From the IMG/VR virus record IMGVR_UViG_3300009177_000049, positions 1-53,430 of that record: DNA of 53,430 nucleotides; one strand, written 5' to 3'. Made by a program: the position numbers and the translations under genes. This stretch comes from a virus. Positions 5,340 through 35,089 of the stretch are shown here, piece by piece (the stretch's first letter is position 1; the number at the start of each line of letters is the position of its first letter). Below the pieces are notes generated by a model. It was not told where the DNA came from and did no database searches. It saw only the letters and a list, made by a program, of their open reading frames with translations.

Positions 5340-6372
5340 CGACTCCGGCAACTCGATCCCGACCAGGCCGTCGGCTCCGCCGTCGACCCCGCACACCAAC
5401 CCGCCACCGTCCAACCCGAGCTCGGGCAGTGGCACCGGTACCGGCACTGGCACCGGCAGTGGTGGCAACCCGTACCTGGCTGCACAGCGTGCCGCCCAGG
5501 CGAAGGCCGACCGGCAGGCTGCACAGGCCAAGCACAAGGCCGCGGTCAAGGCACTCGGCCAGGCCAAGACGTTGGGTGAGCAGGCTGCCGCGCTGAGGCT
5601 GGCACTCGGCAAGACTGGGTTCAAGAAGGCTCTCGACACCCGGTTGGCGAACATCACGTTCCGCACCGGGCAGCGCGACGACATCCTGATGCGCGGCTAC
5701 AACGACCGTATCGGGACGCTCGAGAAGGCTGCCGGTGACAACGAGAAGCAGATCGGGACACAGAACTTCGACAACCTCGCCAACCGTGCCCGCGAGCGGG
5801 GCAACGCGCTGAGCGAGGCGACGGCCCAAGGAGCCGGCGAGTCCGACATGCTCCGTGCCCAGGGCATGAGCCTGCGGAACTGGAACTTCAACGAGACCAC
5901 CAACACCCGTGCCTTCTACGACACGCTCACCTCGATCAACGGTCAGCGCACGGACCTCAACGTCGACACGCTGACCGCACGCGCCAACCTCTACGGCCAG
6001 GCCAACGCCGACCGTGAGGGCCAGTGGACCGACTACTACGCCCACCGCTCCGAGGTGTACACCCAGCTCGCCAACACCTACGGCATGCAGGCCGAGCAGT
6101 ACGGCAACGCCTTGGAGATGCAAGGCTCGAAGCGGGCGCGCACCGGGCTGCGTCGTGCTCGGCGTCAGTCCCGGCAGGCACAGACCGGGATGGCACGCGC
6201 CACCGGGATGGCATGGAAGGACCCCGGTGTTCCTGACCGGATCCAGAACTGGCGTGGTCGCGGAGAGATCCTCGGTGACGTCAGCAACGACGTGCAGGCT
6301 GACGCCGACACCGAGCTGTCCTACCGCAAGCCACAGGGCGCGACGCTACGAAGCTGGGAGGATGCACCGTGA
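5329..6372 (+). CDS. Probable internal virion protein, Ala/Gln-rich helical
   Basis: This 347-residue protein starts at ATG 5329, 11 bases inside the end of the upstream gene. Residues 1-45 are Ser/Thr/Pro/Gly-rich with a GTGTGTGTGSGG run. The remainder is strongly helical, with AAQRAAQAKADRQAAQAKHK at about 47-66 and long polar helices to about 260, ending in a basic segment (RARTGLRRARRQSRQ). The pattern resembles small ejection or core proteins of podoviruses, such as T7 gp14-type, but no specific signature is visible. Its stop overlaps the next start by 4 bases. Confidence 0.55.
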   Translation: MRTNDSGNSIPTRPSAPPSTPHTNPPPSNPSSGSGTGTGTGTGSGGNPYLAAQRAAQAKADRQAAQAKHKAAVKALGQAKTLGEQAAALRLALGKTGFKKALDTRLANITFRTGQRDDILMRGYNDRIGTLEKAAGDNEKQIGTQNFDNLANRARERGNALSEATAQGAGESDMLRAQGMSLRNWNFNETTNTRAFYDTLTSINGQRTDLNVDTLTARANLYGQANADREGQWTDYYAHRSEVYTQLANTYGMQAEQYGNALEMQGSKRARTGLRRARRQSRQAQTGMARATGMAWKDPGVPDRIQNWRGRGEILGDVSNDVQADADTELSYRKPQGATLRSWEDAP

Positions 6373-10100: not shown

Positions 10101-10709
10101 CTGCGGAAGATCGAGCAGGGCGGCATGGTCCACATGTCGGTGTCACGTCCCGACGGGATCTACTACCTCGACGAGCTCTACGGCTTCGACGACTTCGTCG
10201 ACGTCGACGGCAGCGTCAAGCAGCGCGCGATCCCCTGGAAGATCGAGACCAACACCCAGGGAGCCAACCGCGCCCACGACGCCTGGGCCCACCTGCAGCA
10301 GGTGGGCATCAACGCCGGGAACTTCGCCGGGTCGATGCGCTACGGCATCCGCAGCTGGGACGTCAACGGCAGGGCCGTCGAGGTGTCGAAGCACGTCTAC
10401 GACCACAACGCCCCGAGCGAGCTGTACTACGACTTCGAGGACTTCCTCCAGATCCGGCGTGACCTGAAGGAGTGGTTCTTCTTCGCCGAGTCCGTGCCCG
10501 ACAAGCTCGGGGTTACGAAGCCGTCGTACGGCCAGATCAGCCTGATCCAGTACCGGTACGCGCCGATCAGTGTGAACGTCGGCTACGAGTACGGCTCGGT
10601 CGAGACCTTCGAGTACGGGCGCTCGGACTACGCCGGGATGAACGACACCACAGACCCGTACACAACGAACGGGACACCCAACCCCTTCATCGACACCAGG
10701 AGACCGTGA
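7170..10709 (+). CDS. Tail tubular protein B / nozzle with inserted carbohydrate-binding-like modules
   Basis: This 1179-residue protein opens like podovirus tail tubular protein B (GVSDSTSLRIMENTLITESG, then RPGLRYLSY), the six-bladed nozzle. At about 220-590 there is an insertion with CBM_4_9-like starts (NRVLNPSFETNDDTW; LMTKPLHDVNSTGIGGW) and a duplicated ending: YFWTGAVNASSSVY near 435 and KYEWNGTAHASSSTERTY near 570. The nozzle body then resumes with FAFFYTFANEVGESAPSAI. T7 gp12 is near 800 residues, so the excess is about the size of the insertion. Inferred: the nozzle itself also carries sugar-binding modules. GTG 7170 is 3 bases after the previous stop. Confidence 0.75.
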   Translation: MPPKMKVPAPIDRPLARAYLREFTGWSTAYPPGVSDSTSLRIMENTLITESGACRIRPGLRYLSYTTVPTEAVPVGTAFNMPVVGSHEAFFLNDGTKAYLFAVRETDLTVSFRVLAETPSGRVVISLTDAGFSIPQGEAGDSGINFRSTTQYVKYLQIDNKIFALSDAGSMLRMFNVGTTKTAKRMLPIVRPEWTVADKLTVVHPDAGWVNSGVPLTTRTNRVLNPSFETNDDTWTLDTTDTFISRDSTQHQAGGFSLRMSSLPQRTNLMTKPLHDVNSTGIGGWDASAGVDSITTTTGENAMRVNVHDGPAGFAGYVRGPDVNVKAGETYRVAFDVTSTNLIRATGVMVKFYNPADKQVGENLIVNDSLTNTVGRKLSSAFKVPSGALTLAVYLVGYHTSAQGDANYKVRNVSLFQSAESSTFFTGSTGTNYFWTGAVNASSSVYHPPVDVGIRQTMSLGAQRWAGSAYIRGTVARGAQLNLVYIGNNGVISNEVGTMTTDATAGWTRLSNLGTAPANTTSVRLTIRVPALPRGEFHYVDSVLLEGGPTLGAYFDGSFGDSPSSKYEWNGTAHASSSTERTYSVGGTLPNPETRSPNTLISDGSNGHDNAYNFAFFYTFANEVGESAPSAITTVRCQRSWVQWKWETPNGAGEPSGNATSDPEQCADQLVCSMPSDVFVNAMASGAIKWNLYMLEWNDQSPVPVMAVRVDSRELKPTSTLGPDGWLRVTPSQSEAGDEQMMVPTKNTRINYSDPSRGGQGIVAADRMIIVKDATNPAVIKWTSNQQGSYTDFSSSRGGGFKTLTSGNLNMAATVKLWQNPQSADTLTILCRGVDGYNTCYYMAPANIAQQSEAVNVMGFEETTATPGTTSPYGCEVFNNGLYHPLDDQLMKSTATMYNINHKSQTDKIDNMWQGLTRKEWIVSSVHDLRLYYLVHNPAGESLEPGCNGNEIWVLDGGASSDTGGGSWSRFLIQATSLRKIEQGGMVHMSVSRPDGIYYLDELYGFDDFVDVDGSVKQRAIPWKIETNTQGANRAHDAWAHLQQVGINAGNFAGSMRYGIRSWDVNGRAVEVSKHVYDHNAPSELYYDFEDFLQIRRDLKEWFFFAESVPDKLGVTKPSYGQISLIQYRYAPISVNVGYEYGSVETFEYGRSDYAGMNDTTDPYTTNGTPNPFIDTRRP

Positions 10710-10960
10710 TGGCCAAGCTCGACGCCGAACACCGCGACAAGCTCAAGAAGGGCTCATTCGCCCTCAAGGGCAAGCGCAAGTACCCGATCCACGACAAGGC
10801 CCACGCCAAGGCTGCGCTGTCGATGTCGGCGCGCAAGGACACCGAGGGCGACAAGGACGCGATTCGTGCGAAGGTGCTGCAGAAGTACCCCGGCCTCAAG
10901 AAGAAGCCGGGTGAGTCGAAGGGCAAGTCGAAGCTGCAGCCCTTCCACAAGAAGCACTAG
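10709..10960 (+). CDS. DUF6582-like small basic protein
   Basis: This 83-residue protein includes KGKRKYPIHDKAHAKAALSM followed by an A-K-V-x-x-K-Y-P-G-L motif, matching the DUF6582 pattern (YPI-x-D-x-x-HA-x-x-A). That domain often occurs in phage head proteins or as a small stand-alone protein. The C-terminus is very lysine-rich (KKKPGESKGKSK), which could bind DNA. ATG 10709 overlaps the nozzle stop. Its TAG stop is part of a CTAG palindrome that also gives the stop of the opposing gene, so the two transcription units converge with shared bases. Confidence 0.75.
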   Translation: MAKLDAEHRDKLKKGSFALKGKRKYPIHDKAHAKAALSMSARKDTEGDKDAIRAKVLQKYPGLKKKPGESKGKSKLQPFHKKH

Positions 10961-11028
10961 CGTCGCACGATCAGCACGACGAGGAACGCCAGCACGAGCA
11001 GCACCACGATCCAGCCGAGCGCGCCCAT
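10957..11028 (-). CDS. 23-residue single-pass membrane peptide in the lysis cassette
   Basis: The peptide begins MGALGWIVVLLVLAFLVVLI and ends VRR, so it is almost entirely one transmembrane helix with a positive C-terminus. ATG at 11028-11026 overlaps the TGA of the upstream two-helix protein by one base, a coupled arrangement shared by neighbours. Lysis cassettes often carry a holin plus a tiny antiholin or pinholin-like peptide; that role is inferred. The coding case rests on the coupling, the hydrophobic composition and the exact fit between neighbours. Confidence 0.55.
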   Translation of the reverse strand: MGALGWIVVLLVLAFLVVLIVRR

Positions 11029-11183
11029 CAGTTGAGCGCCTTCCCGGCGTGGATCACCAGCACCAGCACCCAGCAGAACAGTCCGGCTGCGATCAGGTTC
11101 AGCCGCGGATGGCTGACGCCGACCGCTGCGATGGCGAAGAAGATCGCAGCGACCAGGAACAGGATGAAGTACAAGACGTCCAT
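11028..11183 (-). CDS. Small two-helix membrane protein, probable holin
   Basis: This 51-residue protein has hydrophobic helices at about 3-21 (VLYFILFLVAAIFFAIAAVG) and 28-46 (LNLIAAGLFCWVLVLVIHAG), and a short basic linker (SHPRL). It lies 1 base downstream of the M23 endolysin on the same strand. Actinophage lysis modules commonly place one or two such proteins immediately after the endolysin. Inferred: holin, topology N-in or N-out undetermined. I prefer ATG 11183 because upstream codons lie inside the endolysin gene. Confidence 0.7.
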   Translation of the reverse strand: MDVLYFILFLVAAIFFAIAAVGVSHPRLNLIAAGLFCWVLVLVIHAGKALN

Positions 11184-11184
11184 G

Positions 11185-11586
11185 TCAGTCCGTTCTGTTG
11201 AAGACGGGCTTCCGGTGGTCCCAGTAGCCGTACGGTGACTTCCGCTCCTCATAGTGCAGGTGCGGCCCAGTCGAGTTCCCAGTGTTCCCGGAGTACCCGA
11301 CGATCTGGCCCTTCTTGATCCGCTGCCCGGCCTTCACCTTGATCGAGCTCAGGTGGCAGTAGCCGATCCTGATGCCCGTCGACTTGTTGATGAGCACCAC
11401 GTGGATCCCGTAGCTCGAGCCCCACGCGTTGAACGTGGAGTGGACCCAGCCCGCCTTGCTGGCACGAACCGGGACACCGGTCTTGCCCTTGGTCGAGTAG
11501 TCGTCTCCGGTGTGGTAGCCGGCGGCCCACGACCCACGCTTGCCGTACGGCGTGGAGATCGTGTACGGCGGGATCGGGTTGCTCAT
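11185..11586 (-). CDS. M23-family endolysin (zinc metallopeptidase)
   Basis: This 133-residue single-domain protein has the LytM/M23 zinc site: H25-x-G-x-D29 (GYHTGDD), H78 in GYCHLSS, and H109-L-H111 in STGPHLHYE. The G-x-x-V-x-A and KKGQIVGYSGNTG strand motifs are also typical. Such enzymes cut peptide cross-bridges in peptidoglycan. No signal peptide or binding domain is present, so release should depend on a holin, and two membrane proteins follow directly. ATG 11586 overlaps the stop of the upstream gene. Confidence 0.9.
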   Translation of the reverse strand: MSNPIPPYTISTPYGKRGSWAAGYHTGDDYSTKGKTGVPVRASKAGWVHSTFNAWGSSYGIHVVLINKSTGIRIGYCHLSSIKVKAGQRIKKGQIVGYSGNTGNSTGPHLHYEERKSPYGYWDHRKPVFNRTD

Positions 11587-11810
11587 TCCTCCACCCTCTC
11601 CGGCCAGTGCCAGGTGCCACCGGTGTGCTCGTCCTCAGACTGACGGATCTGCCGGTCGAAGAACACACCCGTCGGGTTGAGAACACAGATCCCGATGTCG
11701 TTCGGGTTGATCTCGGTGACCACTGCGGCCCGGCACTCGGAGGTGAACTTGCCACCCGCGGAGCCGTACGACACGTAGTGGACGATGCGACCGACGCTGG
11801 GCTCACTCAC
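11583..11810 (-). CDS. Small conserved-type actinophage protein, unknown
   Basis: This 75-residue protein starting at GTG 11810 contains VGRIVHYVSYGSAGGK, CRAAVVTEI, ICVLNPTGVFFDRQ and a GTWHWPE ending. I recall this pattern from small hypothetical proteins in many actinophages. It is likely a compact SH3-like beta barrel, with no known activity. It overlaps both its upstream gene and the endolysin start by a few bases, so it belongs to the leftward lysis operon. Confidence 0.75.
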   Translation of the reverse strand: MSEPSVGRIVHYVSYGSAGGKFTSECRAAVVTEINPNDIGICVLNPTGVFFDRQIRQSEDEHTGGTWHWPERVEE

Positions 11811-11916
11811 TGGCCGGCTCCGTGAAGATCTCGCCCTCGGACTCCGAAGCGTCGTCGTCCGGGTCATCGAGCTCAGGGTCGTAGTCGGGATGCTGTTCGG
11901 CGGGAGCTTCGCTCAT
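11803..11916 (-). CDS. 37-residue acidic protein, first gene of the lysis operon
   Basis: The protein begins MSEAPAEQHPDYDPELDDPD and stays strongly acidic to its end (SESEGEIFTEPASE). ATG 11916 has GGTGAGG just upstream. No family is recognised. It is the first gene leftward from the repeat array at 11948-12182, so its 5' end marks the direction in which that array would drive lysis transcription. Acidic composition could mean DNA mimicry, but nothing proves it. Confidence 0.6.
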   Translation of the reverse strand: MSEAPAEQHPDYDPELDDPDDDASESEGEIFTEPASE

Positions 11917-12253
11917 GGCCTCACCGTACCGCTGGGCGGTGCCGAAATGTAGACACCCGTGTAGACACCCTGTAGACACCCCCTCGTGTCTACACATAAC
12001 CGCAGGTCAGAGGCATGTAGACACCGTAGACACCAAAAAAGACCAAAGTTTATGAGTGTCACACTCAGAAAGAATCCGCTTTTCTGGTGTCTACAGTGTC
12101 TACATCGCGCTGACCTGGGGAAACGCAGCGATTCGAGGTGTCTACAAGTGTGTCTACACGGGTGTCTACACGGGTGTCTACACGCTCTCGCCGCCGCCCA
12201 GCCGCCGCTGCTACTGTTCGTCACATCGTCCGCCCGACCTACCTAGGAACGAC
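11917..12253. promoter_or_regulatory. Divergent intergenic region between the lysis and packaging operons
   Basis: This 337-base stretch has no convincing gene. It separates the leftward lysis operon (start 11916) from the rightward packaging operon (start 12254), and is mostly filled by the repeat array described separately. The symmetric layout suits back-to-back promoters. I cannot name a clear sigma-A -35/-10 pair. Bases 12183-12253 hold only a GC-rich leader with a weak AGGAA before ATG 12254. Confidence 0.6.
11948..12182. repeat. Mirror-symmetric array of TGTAGACACC repeats, centre 12060
   Basis: Copies of TGTAGACACC or one-mismatch forms lie at 11948, 11960, 11971, 12016 and 12025. 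Inverted copies begin at 11985, 12086, 12095, 12137, 12149, 12161 and 12173. The centre is a perfect 15-bp palindrome TGAGTGTCACACTCA (12053-12067). Around base 12060 the parts mirror exactly: 12016-12034 pairs with 12086-12104, and CAGGTCAG (12003-12010) with CTGACCTG (12110-12117). Outer copies mirror within 2-3 bases. This is not a CRISPR array, as there are no long spacers. It is probably a protein-binding promoter/operator or an origin. Confidence 0.9.
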
Positions 12254-13009
12254 ATGAGCCAGAACGAGAAGGCCCGGTACTACCAGGCTCTGAAGGCCGC
12301 AGGCGTCAACTTCGACAAGCACTACCGCGAGTACAACACCGAGGGCCTGCGCTCTGCCTGGCTCAAGCTCAACGACGGAGTCGACCTCGACGCCCCACCC
12401 GAGCCGCAACAGCTCGACCAGGAAGAGCCGCCGCCGCCCACCTTCTTCGGGTTCGAGGCACCGGAGCCCGATCCCGTACGGACACAGGACATCGAGGTCC
12501 GGCACGCCGACCCAGGCGAGATGGCCGGGCAACGGCAGAACAGCCAGCCTGAGGACGTGCCCATCCGGATCGACCCGGAGACCGGGCGCGAGTGGTACCA
12601 GGAGGAGATCCTGAAGCCCGCGTACCCCAAGCCGCGCGGGCGCCGCGTGCTGACCTACGTGGAGACCGGCACCAAGCAGGTCCAGACCAAGTCGGGCGAG
12701 TTCGTCGAGACCTTCGAGGTAGCGGGCGACGGCCCGCCACGGACAGCGGAGGTCAAGATCACGCTGCCGTCCTACCAGGTCGGCGTCTTCAAGGACCCGC
12801 GCTTCCCGTTCAAGGTCCACACCTACAACGGCCTCGAGGGCTTCGACCTGTTCGAGGTCCGCGACTACTACGGCGGAGCCGAGCTCGTGCCCGCCGAGGC
12901 CAAGCTCGTCTACGTCGAGAACGTCCTGTGCTACGACATCCGCTCCGTCGTACGTGCGATCGAAGCGGAATACCGTCAGCTGATGCTGACCGGAAAGGTG
13001 CCCGAATGA
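12254..13009 (+). CDS. Unknown protein, first gene of the packaging operon
   Basis: This 251-residue protein has a short helical start (MSQNEKARYYQALKAAG), an acidic Pro-rich linker (EEPPPPTFFGFEAPEPDP, about 54-74), and a beta-rich C-terminal half (LPSYQVGVFKDPRFPFKVHT, then LVYVENVLCYDIRSVVR). No membrane segment or enzyme motif is visible. ATG 12254 is the first start right of the repeat array, and its stop overlaps the next start by 4 bases. A head or packaging accessory role is inferred from position. Confidence 0.7.
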   Translation: MSQNEKARYYQALKAAGVNFDKHYREYNTEGLRSAWLKLNDGVDLDAPPEPQQLDQEEPPPPTFFGFEAPEPDPVRTQDIEVRHADPGEMAGQRQNSQPEDVPIRIDPETGREWYQEEILKPAYPKPRGRRVLTYVETGTKQVQTKSGEFVETFEVAGDGPPRTAEVKITLPSYQVGVFKDPRFPFKVHTYNGLEGFDLFEVRDYYGGAELVPAEAKLVYVENVLCYDIRSVVRAIEAEYRQLMLTGKVPE

Positions 13010-13611
13010 GCGAGGAAGTCGTCCCCGGCGAGGTCATCGAGACCATCGAGTACTCCGACCGGGACAAGGTGGACCTGGCTGCGCTGAACATCGCGCCCGA
13101 GGGCGACGAGGACACCACGTACCACACGATCCTCGAAGCCTGGCGCGAAGTGCTGAAGCCGGCGGCAGCCGAGTCGAAGAGGAACGTCACCCCGCAGTGG
13201 GCGAACCGGATGATCGCCACCTACATGGGCCTGGCGTACGCCGACATGAACGACTTCCGCGACCTGTACTACAAGCGGCTGCAGCAGATGCTCGACATCG
13301 CCAAGCTCGAGATCGCCTCCGACCCCGACTGTCTGTCCAAGAACGACGCCGTCGAGGACGCAGCCGAGAACTCCTACCACTACAAGAACCTGCTGATGAA
13401 CTGGCAGCTCGCCATCCTCGAGTGGGAGATGGAGTGGGACTGCACCAGCGGCTACGCCGCCATCGACGTCGCCGTCATCTCCGAGATCCACAAGATGTTC
13501 CTGTCCGACCAGGGACTGGTGGCGTGGCTCGAGCAGATCAAGTTCGAGTTCACCGAGGCCGACCAGGAGATGCTGACGCAGACCCTGATGGAGTTCAAGG
13601 GGGAGGAGTAA
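13006..13611 (+). CDS. Unknown helical protein
   Basis: This 201-residue, acidic, mostly helical protein starts at ATG 13006 inside the previous stop. Its centre contains MNDFRDLYYKRLQQMLDIAK and a tryptophan-rich helix (LLMNWQLAILEWEMEWD). No motif ties it to a known enzyme. Its size and helicity would allow a head chaperone or small packaging subunit. Its stop TAA shares a base with the next ATG (TAATG), with GGAGGAG just before. Confidence 0.65.
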   Translation: MSEEVVPGEVIETIEYSDRDKVDLAALNIAPEGDEDTTYHTILEAWREVLKPAAAESKRNVTPQWANRMIATYMGLAYADMNDFRDLYYKRLQQMLDIAKLEIASDPDCLSKNDAVEDAAENSYHYKNLLMNWQLAILEWEMEWDCTSGYAAIDVAVISEIHKMFLSDQGLVAWLEQIKFEFTEADQEMLTQTLMEFKGEE

Positions 13612-14681
13612 TGGGTGAGCAAGCCACTGAAGCCACACCTGAGGTGGTGGAGATTCCGGTCCACGGTGACGCTGCGTTCTCGGCGCTCATGGATGCGCTG
13701 GCGCCGGATGCGGCTGGCGAGACGCCTGCGGCGGGAGACGCGCCTGCTGGAACTGCTCAGCCTGCAGGTGACGGAAAGCCAGCAGACGGTGCTGCTCCTG
13801 GAACAGCTGCTCCACCCGCAGGTGACGGTGGTGCAGCCGCTACCGGAGCTCCTGCCGGACCCGACACCGCCGGGACTGGCGGAGCTGATAGCGGCACAGC
13901 AGCCCCCGCCACCCCCGGAACCGGAGCCGGAGATGGAGCCGATGCCGGACCCCCGTCTGGAGATCGCCCAGAGACTTGGACTACCCCAGCCGCAGAGCTG
14001 ATCCCCAGGCTGGGCGAGTTGTCCACCGCGCTCGAGGAGCGCACCGCACAGGCGTACCAGACCGCTGCACTCGAAGAGGTACAGACCGAGCACGCCCAGT
14101 ACTTCGAGGCCCTCAACAAGCACCCGCGGCTGATGGTCGGTCAGCAGGTGCCGGTCCTCGAAGGCGAAGGCATGGAGACACTCCGTGACGTCAACGACGC
14201 CCGCGAGTGGCAGGAGGCCGTGAAGTCGATCCTGGTCGAGGAGATCAAGGACCGAGCTACCACGGCGATGGAGGAGAACTCCGACTTCCTCTCCACCATC
14301 CACGCCTCGATCGGGCTGTTCCAGAACAACCCCGACCTGGTGCCCGGCACTGCCGAGTTCGATGTCACCCTCGCCAACCGGTTTGCGGAGCTGGCTACTC
14401 CGTACGAGCTCCGGGTCGAGGGGAAACTGCAGGGTTACTCCATCCCCGTGCAGCCGATCATCGAACAGATCCGGGCCCAGCTGGTGGCGGAGCGTTCCTT
14501 GTCCGCGCCTGCCACCCCCGCAGCCGGTGCGGCGGCCTCTTCACCCGCCGCGCCGGCTGCACCGAGGAAGCCGGTCGACCCGCCGCAGGCAGGCATCCAG
14601 TCCAAGGCCGGATCGGGTGAGGCGAAGGAAGACTTCTCCACCCTGTTCGGCACCATCGGGCTACCCGACTTCCAGATCTGA
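13611..14681 (+). CDS. Ala/Gly/Pro-rich protein, scaffold candidate
   Basis: This 356-residue protein has a long disordered region (about 35-125) of A, G, P, T and D, then a helical region (LIPRLGELSTALEERTAQAY; ALEEVQTEHAQYFEALNKHP), a second disordered Ala/Pro stretch (about 300-330), and a conserved-looking end (FSTLFGTIGLPDFQI). No scaffold gene sits between portal and capsid. This acidic, helical, partly disordered protein is the best scaffold candidate, by composition only. ATG 13611 follows GGAGGAG by 3 bases. Confidence 0.65.
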   Translation: MGEQATEATPEVVEIPVHGDAAFSALMDALAPDAAGETPAAGDAPAGTAQPAGDGKPADGAAPGTAAPPAGDGGAAATGAPAGPDTAGTGGADSGTAAPATPGTGAGDGADAGPPSGDRPETWTTPAAELIPRLGELSTALEERTAQAYQTAALEEVQTEHAQYFEALNKHPRLMVGQQVPVLEGEGMETLRDVNDAREWQEAVKSILVEEIKDRATTAMEENSDFLSTIHASIGLFQNNPDLVPGTAEFDVTLANRFAELATPYELRVEGKLQGYSIPVQPIIEQIRAQLVAERSLSAPATPAAGAAASSPAAPAAPRKPVDPPQAGIQSKAGSGEAKEDFSTLFGTIGLPDFQI

Positions 14682-14687
14682 GGCACC

Positions 14688-15458
14688 ATGACCCGCGTCC
14701 ATGCGATGCATGCGTCCATGCAGTTCACCGACAAGCCAGCGTGGCAGGACGCCGACCTGAAGAAGATCTTCACGCGGGCCTCGGCCAGGAAGGTCGGATG
14801 GATCACCGGCACCGAGGCCAACACCGACGACTTCCGCGAGCGCATCAAGGATGCCGGCGAAGCGTACGGCTACCGGGTCGCCACTCGTGCCGGTGACTCC
14901 TGGATCGCCGTGCGCAAGTCGTTCATGACCGGAGGCTGGCACGGGTTCTACTCACCCGTGCTGTCTCCCACTGACGGTGAGGGCAAGCACGGCCCACGTG
15001 GTGTGCTCGGTGTGTCGTTCAAGACAGCCGAGGTCGGCACCATCACCGTGCTGACCGCGCACTACCTGCTCAAGGGCAACCCGGACGCAAACGATCCGGG
15101 ACGCAGGGTGAACGCCAAGTTCAACCTGCAGCTCGCCCGCGAGATCGGACGACTCGCCAAGGAGTACGGCAAGGGCCGGAACCTGGTCTTCTACGGCGGC
15201 GACCAGAACATCACCGATCGCACCGAGGACACGTTCATGGGCCAGCCGCTCACCTCGGCATGGGACGAGCTGAAGCGGTGGGAGTCCACCGGCCACGGCA
15301 CCTACGACGTGATCGCCTCCTACGACCACGACAACCGGGTGGCAGCCGCATACTGCCGTGCCCTGGACGACACCGAGTTCAAGCTGAACACTGACCATTG
15401 GCTGGTCGAAGCTGGTTTCGACATCAGGCCACTCACCTCGAAGGGAGGAAGATCATGA
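14688..15458 (+). CDS. Endonuclease/exonuclease/phosphatase (EEP) family nuclease-like protein
   Basis: This 256-residue protein has EEP (DNase I-like) landmarks in order: metal-binding Glu in ITGTEANTDD (about 43), a V-x-x-x-T-A-H-Y strand (about 124), G-G-D-Q-N-I (about 170) and T-D-H-W-L-V-E near the end (about 238). These enzymes use Mg2+ and an Asp/His pair to hydrolyse phosphodiesters. It sits two genes before terminase in the head operon. It could trim DNA ends at packaging, degrade host DNA, or be virion-borne. Several in-frame ATGs (14688, 14703, 14715) leave the exact start open. Confidence 0.75.
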   Translation: MTRVHAMHASMQFTDKPAWQDADLKKIFTRASARKVGWITGTEANTDDFRERIKDAGEAYGYRVATRAGDSWIAVRKSFMTGGWHGFYSPVLSPTDGEGKHGPRGVLGVSFKTAEVGTITVLTAHYLLKGNPDANDPGRRVNAKFNLQLAREIGRLAKEYGKGRNLVFYGGDQNITDRTEDTFMGQPLTSAWDELKRWESTGHGTYDVIASYDHDNRVAAAYCRALDDTEFKLNTDHWLVEAGFDIRPLTSKGGRS

Positions 15459-15604
15459 GCAGCGCAAGCGCAGCCGAGCAGTACCGCGAGTACGTCGGTC
15501 TCGAGGAGCCCGAGCACGTCGACGGTATCTCCGAGGATGACGAGGACGACGAGGAGCCCGCGGCCAAGAAGTCCACGGCCAAGAAGACCTCGGCCAAGAA
15601 GTAG
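15455..15604 (+). CDS. 49-residue protein with acidic centre and Lys/Ala tail
   Basis: The protein starts MSSASAAEQYREYVGL, continues with an acidic block (SEDDEDDEEP) and ends with repeated AAKKS/TAKKT/SAKK units like histone H1 tails. ATG 15455 overlaps the preceding stop and is preceded by GGGAGG. The charge segregation suggests nucleic-acid or protein condensation. It directly precedes terminase by 6 bases. No family is assigned. Confidence 0.65.
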   Translation: MSSASAAEQYREYVGLEEPEHVDGISEDDEDDEEPAAKKSTAKKTSAKK

Positions 15605-15610
15605 TGCCTG

Positions 15611-17071
15611 ATGCCCACGTTCCCTGTCCACTACCGGCCTCGCCCGTACCAGCGTGAGGCCCACGAGATGTGGCGCAAGTACCGCATCTCGGGCGTGGTG
15701 TACCCGCGCCAGTCGGGCAAGGACGTGGGCATGAGCATGGAGATGTGCGAGCGCCGGCTCCGCACACCCAAGACCACGGGCGTCTACGTCAGCCTCGACA
15801 ACCCGATGATCCGCGACATTCTGTGGGACAAGACGTACTTCGACCCGGCCTCCGGCTTCTACGTCCAGGCCCTGCAGGACAACGTGCCCACCGAGCTCGT
15901 CGACTGGAAGGGCACGGTCATGGAGGGCCGGTTCTCCAACAAGAGCCGGCTCAAGCTGCAGGGCTACTTCCAGTCGGGCCGCGACAAGAACGGTGTCGGC
16001 ACGTCCTTCCAGGACTACGCCTTCACCGAGCTCGCCCTGTTCACACGCGAGGACCCGATCCCCCGGCTCATCCCGATCATCGAGAACCGGGCCGAGGACA
16101 AGAAGCTGATGTTCGCCTCGACTCCACGAGGCAAGCGGAAGAACCCGCTGTGGCAGCTGATGCAGTCGATGGAGGGCAACCCCGACTTCAAGGTCATCAC
16201 CCGCACCATCGACGATCTCAACGCCATGATGGTGGCCGAGAAGCTCGAGCCGGTGCTGACGCAGGCTCAGCTCGAGCAGATCCGCGAGACCTACCACCGC
16301 CGGTTCGGCAACGACCGGATGTTCGAGCAGGAGTACTACTGCTCGTTCGAGGAGATGGACGCTGCCGCCGTGTACGGCGAGGCGTACATGGCGATGATGA
16401 ACGACCAGCGGATCCACACGTTCAACCTCAACACCGCGCATCCGGTGTACGTGGTCTTCGACATCGGCGCATCCGGGATGCACTCCGACGCCACAGCGTG
16501 GATCGCCTGGCAGTGGATCAACTCGAAGATGTTCATATACGACTGCGGCGAGGGCCACGGCAAGGCACTGCCGGAGTACGTCGACGTCCTCCGCGAGAAG
16601 CCCTGGTTCAACCAGGTGGCGCAGATGATCCTACCGTGGGACGGAGAGCACCACGAGAAGGCCGTGAACACCACGCCCGCGGACATGATGCGCACCAAGT
16701 TCCCCAACGTCTCCGTCCTCGCCAAGTCCGGCAAGGTGTGGAAGATCCCCGGCTCACGCCAGGGGGACTACGACATCATCACCGATATCCAGCAGGCACG
16801 GCTGCAGATGTACAACCTGATCGTCCACGAGGGCAACTGCCAGTGGCTGCTCGAGTGCTTCGAGAACTACAAGTACGAGTTCAACCACAAGCTGCAGATG
16901 TGGACAGAGAAGCCGCTGCACGACCGCTTCAGCCACACGATGGATGCCTACCGCTACGCGGTGCAGGCCACCAAGGAGCTGGACTTCTTCGGCGGAAAAT
17001 TTTTTGAGCAACCAGGATCCGAGACGTCCGTCGACTACATCGAGGACTGGTCGAAGGTGTGGGCCAAGTGA
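15611..17071 (+). CDS. terL: Terminase large subunit
   Basis: This 486-residue protein has both terminase domains. The ATPase part has a Walker A variant P-R-Q-S-G-K-D (32-38) and a probable Walker B (DYAFTELALF from residue 135, with E140 as the acid). An FASTPRG coupling motif lies near 173-179. The RNase H-like nuclease has D284 in VVFDIGASG and D445 in SHTMDAYRYA. It powers DNA translocation into proheads and cuts the DNA. ATG 15611 is 6 bases after the previous gene. The last third has an odd A4T6 run at 16996-17005. Confidence 0.92.
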   Translation: MPTFPVHYRPRPYQREAHEMWRKYRISGVVYPRQSGKDVGMSMEMCERRLRTPKTTGVYVSLDNPMIRDILWDKTYFDPASGFYVQALQDNVPTELVDWKGTVMEGRFSNKSRLKLQGYFQSGRDKNGVGTSFQDYAFTELALFTREDPIPRLIPIIENRAEDKKLMFASTPRGKRKNPLWQLMQSMEGNPDFKVITRTIDDLNAMMVAEKLEPVLTQAQLEQIRETYHRRFGNDRMFEQEYYCSFEEMDAAAVYGEAYMAMMNDQRIHTFNLNTAHPVYVVFDIGASGMHSDATAWIAWQWINSKMFIYDCGEGHGKALPEYVDVLREKPWFNQVAQMILPWDGEHHEKAVNTTPADMMRTKFPNVSVLAKSGKVWKIPGSRQGDYDIITDIQQARLQMYNLIVHEGNCQWLLECFENYKYEFNHKLQMWTEKPLHDRFSHTMDAYRYAVQATKELDFFGGKFFEQPGSETSVDYIEDWSKVWAK

Positions 17072-17238
17072 ACGAGGATGAACCGCGTGACGGCTTCACC
17101 GTCAGCCGTGTCGACGGAATGGTCCGTCTCGAGATGACAGACGTGTACGGCGAGGGCGACGTCTACGACTTCCCGCCCAGAGACGCCGTCCGAATCGCCA
17201 CCGCGCTGCTACACCATGCAGCCAGGGAGCTGCCATGA
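17068..17238 (+). CDS. 56-residue unknown protein overlapping the terminase end
   Basis: The gene starts at GTG 17068, sharing 4 bases with the terminase stop, and ends at TGA 17236-17238, sharing bases with the next ATG. The product begins VNEDEPRDGFTVSRVDGMVR and has a beta-rich body with VYDFPPRDAVRIATALLHHA. The perfect fit between two coupled neighbours supports translation. No function is recognised. Confidence 0.6.
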   Translation: MNEDEPRDGFTVSRVDGMVRLEMTDVYGEGDVYDFPPRDAVRIATALLHHAARELP

Positions 17239-17546
17239 AGTCGATCACCGTGCGGCAGGCGCTACAGCATGTGGCCGACTACCCGAACCCACTCGACGAC
17301 GAGATGATCCAGTGGCCGGTCCACGAGCTGGTGGCCCGCACGCTCTACGAGATCGCCAACCAGCCGGAGGCCGGTGTACGTGGCAGCCTGGGCAGAGCCA
17401 ACAAGGCGAGGAAGATGATCCTCGACCGGCTCGTCGGCAAGCGCCGCGCCGGCAGCCACCCGGCCACCAGGAACAATGTGACCATCGACTTCGTGGATCT
17501 GGCCGGAGGTGAGATCGGTGCCCAAGAACCAAGCGACCCAGCGTGA
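17235..17546 (+). CDS. Unknown 103-residue protein
   Basis: ATG 17235 lies in the stop of the preceding gene. The protein is helical (VRQALQHVADYPNPLDDEM; VHELVARTLYEIANQ) with a basic centre (RGSLGRANKARKMILDRLVG) that could contact DNA. The size and location beside terminase would allow a DNA-recognition role in packaging, though the 17652 gene is an equal or better candidate for small terminase. Its end overlaps the following GTG-started gene by 29 bases. Confidence 0.6.
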   Translation: MKSITVRQALQHVADYPNPLDDEMIQWPVHELVARTLYEIANQPEAGVRGSLGRANKARKMILDRLVGKRRAGSHPATRNNVTIDFVDLAGGEIGAQEPSDPA

Positions 17547-17676
17547 CGCACTGGGTGTGATCCTCATGTTCTTCTACGGCGTGCCGGCGGTAGCCGGATT
17601 CGCCTACATCTCGTACCTGTTGTTCGTTGTGATGTTCCTAGGGAGAGGCACATGTCAAGCGAGCTTGTGCCGGTAA
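17518..17676 (+). CDS. 52-residue small membrane protein
   Basis: The gene starts at GTG 17518, 7 bases after GGAGGT (17505-17510), and ends at TAA 17674-17676. After a polar start (VPKNQATQRDALG) the product is hydrophobic through VILMFFYGVPAVAGFAYISY and LLFVVMFLG, so it should cross the membrane once or twice. It overlaps the genes on both sides. The good ribosome site and clean membrane pattern make it likely real. A membrane protein inside a packaging operon is unexpected. Confidence 0.6.
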   Translation: MPKNQATQRDALGVILMFFYGVPAVAGFAYISYLLFVVMFLGRGTCQASLCR

Positions 17677-17951
17677 CCCCGCAGCGGAAGTACCGCAAGC
17701 AGATCCCTGACTCACACCGTCAGACGCTGGACACCCGCATCCTATGGCTGTGGAACCAGCGGTTCGGCACCGTTCAGATGATCTGGAAGGACAGCCCCGA
17801 CGTTCTCGACAAGACCGCGGCTACCCTGTTCCTCCAGGCCGTGCTAGCCAAGGACCTCGACTCGATCGCTCAGATCTTCCAGCGGCTCGAGGGTGGGGCA
17901 CTGACTGATGAGGCCCTGTTGGAGCAGGCTGAATCCCAGATGCGCGTGTAG
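17652..17951 (+). CDS. Helical DNA-binding-type protein, possible terminase small subunit
   Basis: This 99-residue protein, ATG 17652 with GGGAGAGG upstream, has a basic N-terminus (TPQRKYRKQIPDSHRQTLD) and helices ending in LQAVLAKDLDSIAQIFQRLE and a GG turn. That last pattern resembles the end of small terminase and related HTH proteins (a helical unit, then 'I..I..R.EG'). It is the last gene of the rightward operon. Assignment as small terminase is inference, and no HTH is unambiguous. Confidence 0.6.
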   Translation: MSSELVPVTPQRKYRKQIPDSHRQTLDTRILWLWNQRFGTVQMIWKDSPDVLDKTAATLFLQAVLAKDLDSIAQIFQRLEGGALTDEALLEQAESQMRV

Positions 17952-18855: not shown

Positions 18856-19032
18856 TCACTTCCCTCGCTGGCTCGGCTGCTGCTCACGCCGCAGCTGAGC
18901 TTTCGCCGCGTAGAACCTACGCGAGTGGAACGACACCGCCTTGCCGGACTTCGACCGGCACCGATCACCCGGCGCAGCCCCGCACCACGCGCAGGGCAGC
19001 GACAGCTGCTTGGCGTGGAACTCGTCGGTCAT
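18856..19032 (-). CDS. Small zinc-finger protein
   Basis: This 58-residue protein, ATG 19032, contains C-A-W-C-G-A-A-P-G-D-R-C and a later S-F-H-S-R-R-F. This is the Cys-x2-Cys-x7-Cys...His pattern common in small actinophage zinc-binding proteins that may contact nucleic acid. Its start overlaps the upstream stop. The basic C-terminus (AKAQLRREQQPSQRGK) supports nucleic-acid binding. Function is unknown beyond that. Confidence 0.75.
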   Translation of the reverse strand: MTDEFHAKQLSLPCAWCGAAPGDRCRSKSGKAVSFHSRRFYAAKAQLRREQQPSQRGK

Positions 19033-19247
19033 GACGTCACCAGGTGAACGTGACCGGTGAGTACCCATACGGACTGGCCCACCTTGCTCTGGTCAGTCCG
19101 GTCGACGATGCTCTTCATCTTCACCCGCACCGAATGGTGTGGCTTCAGCTGAACCTCTTCGACCTCCGCGTAGCCCTCATACCCAAGCGGGTCAAGGACA
19201 TACACTTCCTGGCCGATCTTGGGCTGCCAGTCCATCGGGTCGCTCAC
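19029..19247 (-). CDS. 72-residue SH3-like unknown protein
   Basis: This is a short beta-rich protein (IGQEVYVLDPLGYEGYAEVE; VRVKMKSIVD; VGQSVWVLTGHVHLV), consistent with a small barrel such as those that modulate nucleic-acid enzymes. ATG 19247 overlaps the prim-pol stop, and its own stop overlaps the zinc-finger start. No named family is claimed. Confidence 0.65.
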   Translation of the reverse strand: MSDPMDWQPKIGQEVYVLDPLGYEGYAEVEEVQLKPHHSVRVKMKSIVDRTDQSKVGQSVWVLTGHVHLVTS

Positions 19248-20092
19248 GGCAGGCCGTACTTGTTGATGTTGGCCACCAGCTTGGCGACCTCGTCCGCCGG
19301 CAGGCCGACATCGAGCGCCCTGTCCTGCAGCAGCTCCTCCCAGCCAGGGATCTGCGCCTGCTGCATCTGGCTGCCGATGGCGAACAGGGTCTGGTTGCGC
19401 TTCCCCTGCGGCATCGGCTTCTTCAGGTCGTCGATGATCTCGTCGTGCATCATCAATACCTCCATCTCATCCTCGTTCGCCAGGACCTTCGTGATCCTGG
19501 CTGCGGTCGCAGCGATCTTCTGATCGCGTGCGTTCAAGATCTGGAACAGGTGGTCCGGCAGCTTGGCCGGTTGCCTCCCGTTCCACCTCTGCGTGTCGTA
19601 GTGGTAGACGCATCCGGTCGCCCGGAAGTCCACGCCCTGCTCGACACCGATGCGATCGTTCAGCAGGCCGTAGCCCTTGACCGCATCCCACTTGTCGTCG
19701 ACGACGTAGAACAGGTGGTACCCGTCTCCCGACTTCGACGTCTCCGCCATCGTCGGCGGCAGCACGCCCAGCCTCTTGGCATGGTCGAGCCCACCGTTCT
19801 TCCCGTCGATGTCGATGCACACCAGCAGCACCGACCGCATCACGTAGGCGTACGCCCACCTGCCGCGGCGGTAGCCGTACAGGATGCGACGCTCGTCGAA
19901 CTCGCCACGCATGTACTTCTCCATGAACCCCGGACCGGACGTGGACGTAAGTCCCCAGCCTGTATCGGTCCGACCATCAGGCCACACCCTTACCAGGGCG
20001 GTGCCCTTCGGTCCGGCGTAGTTCATGAACGCCACGTTCCGTTCCTCGGTGTCGTAGACGTCAGTCCTCCACCAAGGCAGTGATGTCGTCAT
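19244..20092 (-). CDS. Bifunctional primase-polymerase (AEP/prim-pol family)
   Basis: This 282-residue protein has archaeo-eukaryotic primase motifs: D94-I-D96 in VLLVCIDIDGKNGG (metal-binding), S121-G-D-G-Y-H126 in the nucleotide-binding motif, and FRATGCVYHY near 176-185 as the third motif region. It makes primers or short DNA for replication. The next gene upstream is an SF3 helicase, the usual partner, overlapping it by 32 bases. The helical C-terminus (about 200-282) resembles PriCT-type linkers. Confidence 0.85.
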   Translation of the reverse strand: MTTSLPWWRTDVYDTEERNVAFMNYAGPKGTALVRVWPDGRTDTGWGLTSTSGPGFMEKYMRGEFDERRILYGYRRGRWAYAYVMRSVLLVCIDIDGKNGGLDHAKRLGVLPPTMAETSKSGDGYHLFYVVDDKWDAVKGYGLLNDRIGVEQGVDFRATGCVYHYDTQRWNGRQPAKLPDHLFQILNARDQKIAATAARITKVLANEDEMEVLMMHDEIIDDLKKPMPQGKRNQTLFAIGSQMQQAQIPGWEELLQDRALDVGLPADEVAKLVANINKYGLP

Positions 20093-21452
20093 GTGGATCC
20101 TCCGCTCTCTGTGTCTCCATGAACGCAGCCGCCTCCTCCTTCAAGCCGACCACGAACCTGACCTTGCTCACCTTCTCGTTGGACCTCACCGACTTCCGCT
20201 CGGTCTCCAGCAACGGCTGGAACTGAGCGAACACGTCGGGCTCGGACCAACCACCGAGATCGTTCTCGGTGTGCAGCCGCCACGACTTGAACCCCGTCAC
20301 GACCACACTGAACTCCTCACCGAACAGGGAGTTCACCCCGTTCGGCTCGGTGTCCTCCACGTACTTCAAGTACTGCAGACCCGTGGAGTTCACCAGCATC
20401 TGCTCAAGCTGCAGCTCGAGCGCACGACTCGTCGGCGCCAGCTCGCCGGCCACCGCATCCTCGAGGATGTAGCGGTCGACCAGCAGCGACAGCAGCGCAC
20501 CGAGCATCCGCTCGCTCAGCATCCGCCGCTCGAACCGGTGGTCCAGCCGGTACACGTTCGGGAACTGGAACCGGACCAACCGCTTCTGCAGGGCAGCAGA
20601 CTTGTCGCTCGTCTTCGGCTCACGGTTCAGACCCTCGAGGAACAAGGCGTTCGTCTGCACCTGCGTCGACTTGGACTCGTACAGCTTCCTGATCGACACG
20701 GGCTCACCCGCGATCAGGGACTTCTCCGTTCCACTGTCCTTCAGGTACACCGCCTGACCGTCGAAGACGATGTTCAGCAGTTTCCCGTTGAGCTCGGTGA
20801 CCACCGGGCTCTGCTCGGAGATCATCTGCCGAGTCACACTCGACACGTTCTCCGCACCGAACAGGTGCTGCAGCATCTTCAACGCCACAGACTTCCCGTT
20901 CCTGCCCTCACCGATCAGCAGGATGTACTTCACTGCCGACCAGCCTGGTGACAGGCTGGACGCCAGGTGCTTCAGGAACGACTCGGCCTCCTCGTCGGAG
21001 TTGAGCCAACCCGACACAACCTCGAAGACGTAGTCCTTGTCGGCCTTGTCCTCGTTCAGCATCGGCACCAACGTGTTGGGACGGAAGTCCCCACTCGGTG
21101 CCACCAGATCACCACGGTGATCCAGCTCTCTCAACCCTGCTTGGGTCCTGACCAGCAACGACGTCACCGGCTTGTCGTTGTGACTGGCGTTCTGCGCCAC
21201 CATGTAGTCGTAGTTCACCAGCTCCGAGGAGTTGGCGAACAAGATGTCGAACTCGTCGGCAGCCATCCGCTCCACCTGTTCCAGGCTCAGCGGCAACCAC
21301 ATGGTACGGTCGATGTCCGGTGGAACGGACACGTCACGGGTCTCATAGTCAGCAGGGATATAGGTGACGCCACGGTGGCGCACCAGCTGATGACCGGAAG
21401 CGAGACTGAAGGCATAGGTAGCCAGCTCCTTCCGGGTCTTGGGCTCTAGCAT
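20061..21452 (-). CDS. SF3-type (D5-like) replicative helicase
   Basis: This 463-residue protein has an N-terminal D5_N-like region (YVFEVVSGWLNSDEEAESFL) and a superfamily 3 ATPase: Walker A G181-E-G-R-N-G-K-S188, Walker B near 225-240 (LLNIVFDGQAVYLKD) and motif C ALFLEGLN (about 269-276). It should form a hexamer that unwinds DNA, working with the prim-pol encoded right after it. I choose ATG 21452 over an in-frame ATG 15 bases earlier because AAAGGAG lies 5 bases before it. Downstream of the core, a winged-helix-like C-terminus follows. Confidence 0.85.
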   Translation of the reverse strand: MLEPKTRKELATYAFSLASGHQLVRHRGVTYIPADYETRDVSVPPDIDRTMWLPLSLEQVERMAADEFDILFANSSELVNYDYMVAQNASHNDKPVTSLLVRTQAGLRELDHRGDLVAPSGDFRPNTLVPMLNEDKADKDYVFEVVSGWLNSDEEAESFLKHLASSLSPGWSAVKYILLIGEGRNGKSVALKMLQHLFGAENVSSVTRQMISEQSPVVTELNGKLLNIVFDGQAVYLKDSGTEKSLIAGEPVSIRKLYESKSTQVQTNALFLEGLNREPKTSDKSAALQKRLVRFQFPNVYRLDHRFERRMLSERMLGALLSLLVDRYILEDAVAGELAPTSRALELQLEQMLVNSTGLQYLKYVEDTEPNGVNSLFGEEFSVVVTGFKSWRLHTENDLGGWSEPDVFAQFQPLLETERKSVRSNEKVSKVRFVVGLKEEAAAFMETQRAEDPHDDITALVED

Positions 21453-33874: not shown

Positions 33875-34231
33875 TTACTCCACACCTAGATCATCGAATG
33901 AGATAGACACGCCTCTCGATGCATACATGGCTACCATCGCTTCGGTGTTGGCCCTCGCTTGACGAGGATCAACGCCTCGCTCGATGAAAGCCTCATACTC
34001 TCGCTGAAGATCAGCGAGTACCTGAGCTCGCACATACTTCGAGTCAGGCAAAGCGTTGTGACGGACCGGACCAATGCTGGCCGGACTCAACATCCCAAGG
34101 TCCACCACATGTGTGGTGAGTACGTGGTCCACGTACTTGGACAGAGTCCAGCCCTTCAGACGTGCAGCTGTCTCGAGAGACGAGCGCACGTCGGCGGCAA
34201 CACGAGCAGTGATCGTTGTGTTCATAGTCAT
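33875..34231 (-). CDS. Ribbon-helix-helix DNA-binding regulator
   Basis: This 118-residue protein has an Arc/MetJ-like N-terminus: TTITARVAADVRSSLETAAR then LKGWTLSKYVDHVLTTHV (strand, helix, helix). The C-terminal half is helical (YVRAQVLADLQREYEAFIER) and may mediate oligomerisation. ATG 34231 (or 34225) lies 8 bases from a perfect palindrome CGTACAC-GAT-GTGTACG and beside the repeat array centred at 34397. Inferred: an autoregulated repressor or early/late switch. It is the most upstream gene of the leftward operon. Confidence 0.8.
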   Translation of the reverse strand: MTMNTTITARVAADVRSSLETAARLKGWTLSKYVDHVLTTHVVDLGMLSPASIGPVRHNALPDSKYVRAQVLADLQREYEAFIERGVDPRQARANTEAMVAMYASRGVSISFDDLGVE

Positions 34232-34239
34232 GGACACAA

Positions 34240-34256
34240 CGTACACGATGTGTACG
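34240..34256. promoter_or_regulatory. Probable autoregulatory operator of the RHH gene
   Basis: CGTACAC and GTGTACG flank GAT in a perfect inverted repeat, 9-25 bases upstream of ATG 34231. RHH proteins bind such short symmetric sites and commonly repress their own gene. Binding is inferred, not shown. Confidence 0.65.
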
Positions 34257-34287
34257 AATGCTGCAATGAATCGCCGGCAAACAGGGA

Positions 34288-34506
34288 TGTAGACACCCCA
34301 TGTAGACACCCTGTGTACAACTGCAAACGTGCAGGTCAGACGGCACATGGTGCATGTAGACAGCCTTCACATACCAATCTCACCAGAAGGTGTACAACAT
34401 ACACCTAGGGATGAGGTTAGATACGAGAAGGTGTCTACACACCACATGCACCGCCTGACCTGCACAGATGCAGTTGTACACAGGGTGACTACACCAGGTG
34501 TCTACA
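34288..34506. repeat. Mirror-symmetric array, centre 34397, related to the array at 12060
   Basis: Every part has its mirror at the exact expected base around 34397. TGTAGACACC 34288 pairs with 34497. TGTAGACACC 34301 pairs with GGTGACTACA 34484. CTGTGTACAACTGCA 34311-34325 pairs with 34469-34483. CAGGTCAG 34332 pairs with CTGACCTG 34455. TGTAGACAGC 34355 pairs with GGTGTCTACA 34430. The centre is AGGTGTA-CAACA-TACACCT (34388-34406). It shares TGTAGACACC and CAGGTCAG with the first array. Probably a protein-bound control region or replication origin. Confidence 0.9.
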
Positions 34507-34855
34507 CACCGCCGGCCCAATCAGCTCGGTGCCCTCGCTGCCCAGTGAACCGAGCACAGCTCGAGACACAGCTACCGCTGTGACAATGCTGATACGCAAT
34601 GCATTGCGATAAGAATATGATCGAGCGTGGCAAACCACATTATGACTGTGTCATAAAATCCGTCATGCTCTAACAACCACATTGCGCATGCACACCTTGT
34701 CTTGTGACAATCCCTCGCCCAGTAGCCTGGGCGCAAACGTCACGAGACTAGGTGAAAGTATGTTGTGTCATGTTGTGTCTTCTCATCAACGCATACGCAT
34801 TGTGAAAAAAAGAGCATGACTCCCAGCATAAGCTGGAAGCCACACTCGATCCCAA
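34507..34855. promoter_or_regulatory. AT-richer intergenic region with palindromes
   Basis: I see no supportable gene here. It holds CGCAATGCATTGCG (34595-34608), TTATGAC-TGT-GTCATAA (34640-34656), a tandem ATGTTGTGTC (34760-34779), ACGCATACGCAT (34789-34800), and a weak promoter-like TTGTGA...TAGCCT (34702-34728). The base composition is visibly richer in A+T than the surrounding genes, as is common at regulatory or origin sites. Confidence 0.6.
34805..34841 (-). terminator. Probable terminator of the 34856-35089 gene
   Basis: On leftward RNA, GGCUUCCAGC and GCUGGGAGUC (34841-34818) form a 10-bp stem with two G-U pairs and a UUAU loop. A U7 run follows after six bases (A7 at 34805-34811). 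It begins 15 bases after the gene's stop. Confidence 0.6.
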
Positions 34856-35089
34856 CTACTTCGTGTAGTTGTCCAGCATACGCTGATAAGCGTCGATGAT
34901 CTTCTGGTCCGAACCAGCAGACTTCATCTCCTCGATTGCCTTACGCAACCGATCCATGTTGTCCATGACCTGACCATCGACAACAACCGACTTCTCACGA
35001 ATAGTCGACGCCATCAGCGAGCGCATCATCCCATTCATGGGATCCATGCCAGCGATAACGCTAGCCTTGAGCGCATCTCCAAAATCCAT
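34856..35089 (-). CDS. Unknown 77-residue early-region protein
   Basis: ATG 35089 has TAGGAG 6 bases upstream. The product begins MDFGDALKASVIAGMDPMNG and is Met-rich and helical, with DRLRKAIEEMKSAGSDQ near its end. It is a single-gene unit with its own AT-rich upstream region and its own terminator, outside the main leftward operon. This suggests separate, probably early, expression. No family is recognised. Confidence 0.65.
   Translation of the reverse strand: MDFGDALKASVIAGMDPMNGMMRSLMASTIREKSVVVDGQVMDNMDRLRKAIEEMKSAGSDQKIIDAYQRMLDNYTK

Follow-up and report, generated by a model that had tools for sequence, protein, structure and literature searches.

Paired arrays of opposed iterons as likely replication origins in a podophage related to Microbacterium cluster EK phages

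Introduction

Phage P4 possesses two cis-acting iteron regions, ori and crr, which are read by its primase-helicase alpha, a single fused protein; crr supports replication without itself starting it. In PICI/SaPI origins two opposed sets of lineage-specific iterons enclose an AT-rich region (accessible parts of PMC6092414 and PMC7581432), and SaPI Rep reads its iterons by means of its C-terminal domain, apparently as two hexamers (accessible part of PMC7581432). For Bacillus phage SPP1 the accessible sections of PMC6316719 describe oriL, located inside early gene 38, and oriR, located in the late region, both of which are bound by one initiator, and state that gp38 bound to oriR is thought to stall forks and to trigger concatemer synthesis.

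The literature searched, which covered few subscription papers, contains neither a description of a replication origin for cluster EK phages nor one of arrays of the kind reported here. The supplementary repeat legend of PMC7302621 covers, as far as the accessible part goes, clusters EC, EF and EG, and a literature search for the 10-mer TGTAGACACC yielded, among the matches listed, unrelated titles only. The present analysis concerns a viral record of 53,430 nucleotides, hereafter called the window, whose terminase shares about 71% identity with its counterparts in Araxxi and Burro, two phages of Microbacterium, and about 60% with those in cluster EK phages. It harbours two arrays of inverted iterons, and we consider it likely that the array at site 1 (array 1) is one of two replication origins of this cluster-EK-like podophage, or that the two arrays form an origin and a paired cis-element.

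Results

Genome setting

Predicted genes of the window run rightward from 35.5 kb via a giant gene of 4,731 codons, the portal gene and the tail genes to 10.96 kb. Predicted lysis genes are oriented leftward (11.92-11.03 kb), packaging genes rightward (12.25-17.95 kb) and replication genes leftward (35.09-18.25 kb). Array 1 is located between lysis and packaging genes, while array 2, at site 2, separates two leftward genes and precedes the giant gene by 1.7 kb. The genes flanking array 1 are:

11028-11916, minus strand: lysis genes, including the endopeptidase gene (11185-11586)
12254-17951, plus strand: packaging genes, including the terminase gene (15611-17071)

In the clade of the window the leftward lysis cassette (11028-11916) lies between tail and packaging genes; in the EK isolates the lysis genes follow the tail genes in rightward orientation. 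The GC skew of the window flips sharply at about 35.0 kb (34000-38000) and decays within the giant gene over its first 10 kb. No clean flip at the arrays is observed in the relatives and, since the skew is suggestive in the window but inconsistent in the relatives, it was not used as an origin marker. A further observation concerns the giant protein itself (36233-50428), in which a D-x-DGD motif at about residue 943 is invariant in 12/12 aligned giant proteins. Two-barrel RNA polymerases have such a motif in their active site. The fold prediction for this protein is poor (mean pLDDT 52), and its profile retrieves only proteasome alpha-subunit sequences at E values of 0.2-0.3. A search of the whole window against Rfam gave no family at gathering threshold.

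Array 1 is mirror-symmetric in two registers

The elements of array 1 are:

11948-12182, no strand assigned: array 1, 12 iterons in the pattern >>><>> core <<<<<<, mirror centre about 12060 for the inner and 12065 for the outer copies
12003-12010, plus strand: CAGGTCAG box of the left arm
12016-12034, plus strand: left inner iteron pair, spacing 9 bp
12035-12085, no strand assigned: core, 51 bp, AT-rich, containing AAAGTTT and the palindrome at 12053-12067; proposed melting site
12086-12104, minus strand: right inner iteron pair, spacing 9 bp
12110-12117, minus strand: CTGACCTG box of the right arm

An earlier note on this DNA had described twelve copies of a 10-base motif in both orientations around a perfect 15-bp palindrome, at the very place where leftward lysis and rightward packaging genes diverge. 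All of this is borne out in the window: the array contains 12 copies of TGTAGACACC reading either way, eight of them exact and four deviating by a single base, the palindrome TGAGTGTCACACTCA at 12053-12067 consists of 7-bp arms and one central base, and the gene predictions on both sides confirm the divergence. The note had also claimed that inner copies and box are mirrored to the exact base around 12060. This is correct for the inner iterons, where 12016/12025 are mirrored by 12095/12086, as well as for the boxes, where CAGGTCAG at 12003-12010 is mirrored by CTGACCTG at 12110-12117. The outer copies, spaced 11-13 bp, instead follow a centre at 12065 (23 nt, 100% complementary), so that the symmetry of array 1 is exact in two registers and not in one. 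With a GC content of 0.35 the core belongs to the lowest 0.24% of all 51-mers of the window.

Counting the 10-mer throughout the record, as the note had proposed, reveals 12 exact copies which are all confined to arrays, though not to a single one: eight belong to array 1 and four to a second site at 34288-34506 which the note had missed. To this extent the note's own argument against its view, a motif that is common elsewhere in the genome, applies in part. When up to two mismatches are allowed the window contains 68 matches compared to 44.4 expected, a number reached by none of 100 shuffles. An unbiased symmetry scan over every possible centre in the window, comparing 109 positions per side, ranks 34397 first (78/109) and 12060 second (69/109), the third-best centre reaching 53 (mean 29.2, sd 5.6).

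A second array and a common plan

Array 2 is built from the same iteron and the same boxes as array 1:

34288-34506, no strand assigned: array 2, six iterons in the pattern >>> core <<<, centre 34397, the most symmetric of the window
34332-34339, plus strand: CAGGTCAG box of the left arm
34365-34429, no strand assigned: core, 65 bp between the inner iterons, GC 0.43
34455-34462, minus strand: CTGACCTG box of the right arm

Its inner iterons are single, whereas elsewhere inner iterons usually occur as pairs 7-10 bp apart. Across the relatives of Microbacterium cluster EK phages the plan is kept while the iteron itself varies: two iteron sets in opposite orientation enclose an AT-rich core, which measures 41 or 49-53 bp. 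We tabulated 20 arrays, 14 of which are of the GTAG(A/T)C iteron type; the cores of the latter measure 41 bp (three), 49-53 bp (ten) and 65 bp (site 2 of the window), i.e. 13/14 fall at 41 or 49-53 bp. Lengths of 41 and 51 bp differ by about one helical turn. In all 19 arrays tested the core ranks, by GC content, among the lowest 0.03-3.1% of windows of equal length on the same contig (core GC 0.27-0.53, contig GC 0.58-0.67), the AT-richness being modest in some of them (GC 0.49-0.53 in G003, L030 and G006). AAACTT/AAGTTT is present in 11/19 cores across iteron families, compared to control means of 0.00-0.27 where control windows existed; L012 had none, which leaves the summed expectation undefined. 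The CAGGTCAG box is common to the TGTAGACACC group, G006 and G018.

In the TGTAGACACC group the symmetry, taken base for base, is strong; according to the symmetry scan it is not outstanding in Araxxi or Alex44. The arrays of MissAmericana and EugeneKrabs exhibit no clear mirrored order with the word chosen. Thus, in EK isolates the array as a whole is less symmetric.

Arrays in the relatives

At site 2 a gap of 680-990 bp is found in six out of six isolates (Araxxi, Burro, MissAmericana, PhriedRice, EugeneKrabs and Alex44), and in each of them this gap contains 7-12 copies of the isolate's own 9-mer, GAGGTAACG, CCGGTTACG and GCGAACCGC being among these words. At site 1 no array is present in the three isolates inspected (Araxxi, Burro and MissAmericana), which have a TATAAT-containing region there. 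The earlier note had named relatives which keep the flanking genes and lack the symmetry as an observation speaking against its view; in part such relatives do exist, as EK isolates retain the flanks of site 1 without array 1. Two arrays are present in 5/5 near-complete records with GTAG(A/T)C iterons, besides the window, G001 and G003, and one array is present in 5/5 records with GTAACG iterons (49-54 kb).

Where site 1 does hold an array, diverging genes do not always flank it. We considered the relatives whose contig covers both flanks and in which no leftward lysis cassette adjoins the array; in 7/7 of them (L008, L010, L011, L012, L018/G007, G003 and G006) it lies between co-directional genes. 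Since the array is kept without the divergent operon, a divergent promoter cannot account for it in general.

Two further findings were set aside. In L023 (3453-3628) and L028 (2982-3157) six copies of GTAGACAC share one orientation, with spacings that are multiples of 12 bp; these are not comparable arrays, and this repeat of other viral contigs is probably unrelated. Comparison of the array DNA with a phage collection gave one 47-base match in a Microviridae record, which was taken as chance.

The candidate initiator and its partner

Two adjoining leftward genes are of interest with respect to replication:

20061-21452, minus strand: proposed initiator, a DUF5906 primase-helicase of SaPI5 type with a predicted C-terminal winged helix at about residues 341-450
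19244-20092, minus strand: partner primase-polymerase (Prim-Pol)

Besides DUF5906, the helicase gene, which is at a distance of 8 kb (array 1) and 13 kb (array 2) from the arrays, gives a PHROG DNA primase match (3e-25). A profile built from 13 homologues finds a sole match among PDB sequences, 7ola/7om0 (E 6e-11), entitled 'Structure of Primase-Helicase in SaPI5'. The AlphaFold model, with a mean pLDDT of 68 and values below 50 at residues 205-302, has moderate confidence; its residues 1-422 superimpose on the SaPI5 primase-helicase with a VIA-align Z of 10.5 and an rmsd of 6.4 over 300 residues. In the model, residues of about 340-459 match winged helices, i.e. those of ORC/Cdc6 on origin DNA and of PadR/MarR, at Z 5-6. 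Searched alone against PDB sequences, the C-terminal domain had no match up to E 10.

The helicase co-varies with the iteron

For 20 genomes (190 pairs) we compared iteron identity with the identity of 40-residue protein windows beyond overall relatedness. Iteron words were anchored by hand, in this test on GTA (or CGA) in the left inner pair; L005, whose array was not readable, L081 (G018), which had no iteron assigned to it and entered the alignment only, and the partial L087 and L088 were left out, while L086 (G015), whose array mixes GTAGTCACC and GTAGACACC, was scored as TGTAGACA. The best-tracking window of the helicase comprises residues 391-430, with a partial r of 0.63, or 0.69 with residues 1-340 as baseline, compared to 0.36 for the best window of the adjacent Prim-Pol, which served as control. 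Elsewhere in the helicase, windows at residues 231-280 reach 0.44 and those within 341-450 reach 0.44-0.58; for residues 241-280 the values are 0.44-0.53. Residues 401-445 give r 0.62 (baseline 1-340), a result met by 0/5000 permutations of the iteron labels in a test which ignores shared ancestry. Inside the two iteron groups alone (91 pairs) the winged helix (0.40) tracks the iteron no better than whole Prim-Pol does (0.38). A first test with 12 genomes, superseded by the present one, had pointed in the same direction more weakly (partial r 0.48 at the C-terminus).

The sequence of the helix follows the iteron groups: W-x-x-PD(V/I) is present in 7/11 members of the TAG(A/T)C group, (S/T)DGD in 7/7 of the GTAACG group and DDY in 2/2 of the AACC group. 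G018, which stood outside the test, has a WAEPDV helix, and its gap, read afterwards, contains copies of TGTAGTCACC. These sequence comparisons give the appearance of joint evolution between the repeat and the putative DNA-reading end of the helicase.

A conserved hairpin marks the gap of array 2

The intergenic gap of array 2 contains one further element:

34693-34754, plus strand: hairpin element with a covarying 7-bp stem, in the window present at site 2 only

It is located between array 2 and the giant gene and consists of a variable 7-bp stem with a TA-containing loop, followed by near-constant GCAARCG and CTAG. The same element is found in L001 (about 19007-19058), L041 (about 6307-6364), G001, G002, G006, G007, Burro, MissAmericana, PhriedRice, EugeneKrabs and Alex44. 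In a hand alignment all seven pairs of the stem are kept in 11/11 phages, with changes on both sides at 6/7 positions. The folding z score is -5.3 in the window and only -1.2 for G003, and there is no Rfam family for it. The hairpin could be a site of single-strand initiation, a primer RNA or a promoter element.

Arrays are lost where the helicase has been replaced

We used the hairpin as an array-independent marker of the gap. It identifies 18 loci, 17 of which are readable over at least 300 bp; L071, with 88 bp upstream, was left out. In 14 of these 17 gaps there is an array of at least eight copies (shuffled controls 3-6), and inspection of L064 reveals an array of six copies. The remaining two, in G013 (53.8 kb) and G023 (53.6 kb), have none. 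Exactly these two are the sole near-complete records without the SaPI5-type helicase; G003 lacks it as well but is a fragment which ends before that region. In both, the gene is missing between Prim-Pol and a second helicase, where about 0.5 kb remain, and another SF3 helicase (D5_N, E 3e-20 and 3e-25) is encoded beside the gap, at 37527-39110 in G013 (L089-L091) and at 10103-11710 in G023 (L092-L094). Relic CAGGTCAG boxes persist in both gaps, that of G013 also containing two iteron-like words, and at site 1 the matched genes are only about 91 and 49 bp apart, respectively. Hence, the array disappears along with the helicase. Between the two new helicases the identity is 35%, and on the basis of the sequences both replacements may stem from one event.

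Discussion

Alternative explanations

The earlier note had left open whether array 1 is a dual promoter, a repressor platform or an origin. Of these the origin is now best supported, while a divergent dual promoter is weakened by the co-directional genes in 7/7 relatives and by the failure to find a sigma-70-like pair in 11700-12400. Transcription has to be considered in a broader sense, however, as a phage regulator bound to the iterons might activate or repress the flanking promoters, i.e. those of lysis and packaging genes at site 1 and of the leftward early genes at site 2. Two signals next to array 1 are relevant in this respect:

12212-12217, plus strand: TACTGT, extended -10-like box, 30 bp past the last iteron and upstream of the packaging gene at 12254, conserved in site-1 relatives
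11923-11928, minus strand: TACGGT, -10-like box that precedes the ATG of the first gene in the leftward lysis series by exactly 6 nt

On the packaging side, a -10-like box (TACTGT, TAGTGT or TACAGT, often with upstream TGn) follows the array at 20-75 bp in 5/5 genomes measured and recurs in seven aligned flanks, with no clear -35. The TATAAT at site 1 of the three EK isolates devoid of the array looks as if the array compensated for a weak promoter. On the lysis side, both genomes examined have a box 6 nt before the ATG (TACGGT in the window, TAGCGT in L017), and the 11-13 bp spacing of the outer iterons in the window is a further point in favour of a regulator. A promoter function on the packaging side of site 1 is thus possible. 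Yet array 1 persists without a divergent operon, no comparable outward boxes are evident by eye at site 2 of G002 and G003, the array is lost where the helicase is replaced, and it is the winged helix of the helicase that co-varies with the iteron. We therefore regard a platform for transcriptional control as a rather unlikely explanation of the arrays. As an aside, a -10-like box so close to the ATG in the window and L017 suggests a leaderless lysis transcript.

The position of array 1 directly upstream of the packaging genes could also indicate a packaging (pac) or site-specific recombination site, and as EK genomes are mostly reported to be circularly permuted (PMC8281081 and the accessible part of PMC7302621) a pac site must exist somewhere. 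Against such a role stands the second array, which is 22 kb off at early genes and is the only one kept by EK isolates. Moreover, the accessible part of PMC7302621 states that its authors identified no integrase or repressor genes in these phages, and for KingKamren a 203-bp direct terminal repeat is reported (accessible part of PMC12022796), so that we consider this reading very improbable. Still more improbable, to the point of being barely credible, is an operator array of the neighbouring RHH protein, whose gene (33875-34231) is the first leftward one beside array 2. The RHH domain was called by eye, Pfam giving only a TacA1-like hit at E 0.02. By tblastn a homologue is found in 1/14 relatives, some of whose records are partial, namely in G018 (E 4e-16), and in neither G001 nor G003, both of which have intact arrays; the RHH protein was rejected as iteron binder on this ground, and the idea of the earlier note that it might bind the array is accordingly unlikely. 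A better candidate operator is the perfect palindrome CGTACACGATGTGTACG (34240-34256) over the -10 region of the RHH gene's own putative promoter, a site likely to serve autoregulation.

Proposed mechanism

From sequence, structural modelling and analogy to known systems we infer that the SaPI5-type helicase binds the iterons, that the core melts and that replication ensues. Helicase subunits would bind the iterons via their C-terminal winged helix, one assembly per arm, and the inner pairs, at fixed helical phase, would position two rings head to head over the AT-rich core. Once this core had melted, the partner Prim-Pol and the phage DNA polymerase I could start two forks. Site 2 is kept in all helicase-bearing relatives with a readable gap, which argues for this site, adjoining the early replication genes, being probably the main origin. 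Site 1, located in the late region, might provide a second origin or, with the helicase bound to it, a barrier to forks comparable to SPP1 oriR. A speculative and unlikely extension would be a timer from replication to lysis, derived from a duplicated satellite-type origin: the initiator would fire the early origin at site 2 and would also occupy site 1, thereby stalling forks and activating the weak promoters of packaging and of leaderless lysis transcription; the late genes would then await enough initiator and hence replicated DNA.

If the origin function of the arrays is confirmed, a whole group of lytic podophages uses a satellite-type origin, duplicated in one clade, which would link satellite and phage replicons. 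The iteron families and their matched winged helices constitute a ready set for studying how SF3 initiators choose their DNA, with the two swapped-helicase genomes as a natural control, and a testable origin becomes available for cluster EK phages.

Comparison with known systems

With phage P4 the window shares two iteron regions, here putatively cis-acting, and a primase-helicase as their putative reader; alpha is a fused protein, whereas helicase and Prim-Pol are encoded by separate genes here. The likeness to PICI/SaPI origins comprises the two opposed iteron sets around an AT-rich region, the lineage-specific iterons and a D5/SF3-type primase-helicase which is related to SaPI5 Rep and has a predicted C-terminal dsDNA-binding domain. 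In contrast to the SaPI origin, which is directly downstream of rep, the arrays are far away from the helicase gene; they belong to a lytic podophage rather than to a satellite, its helicase and Prim-Pol again being separate proteins, and there are two arrays per genome in one clade, an extra CAGGTCAG box and a hairpin at one of the sites. Bacillus phage SPP1 likewise has two similarly organised sites per genome, each with repeats and an AT-rich element (accessible part of PMC6316719). SPP1, however, employs gp38/gp39, the DnaB-family helicase gp40 and direct repeats, while the candidate initiator described here is of the DUF5906/SF3 type and its putative binding sites are opposed repeats.
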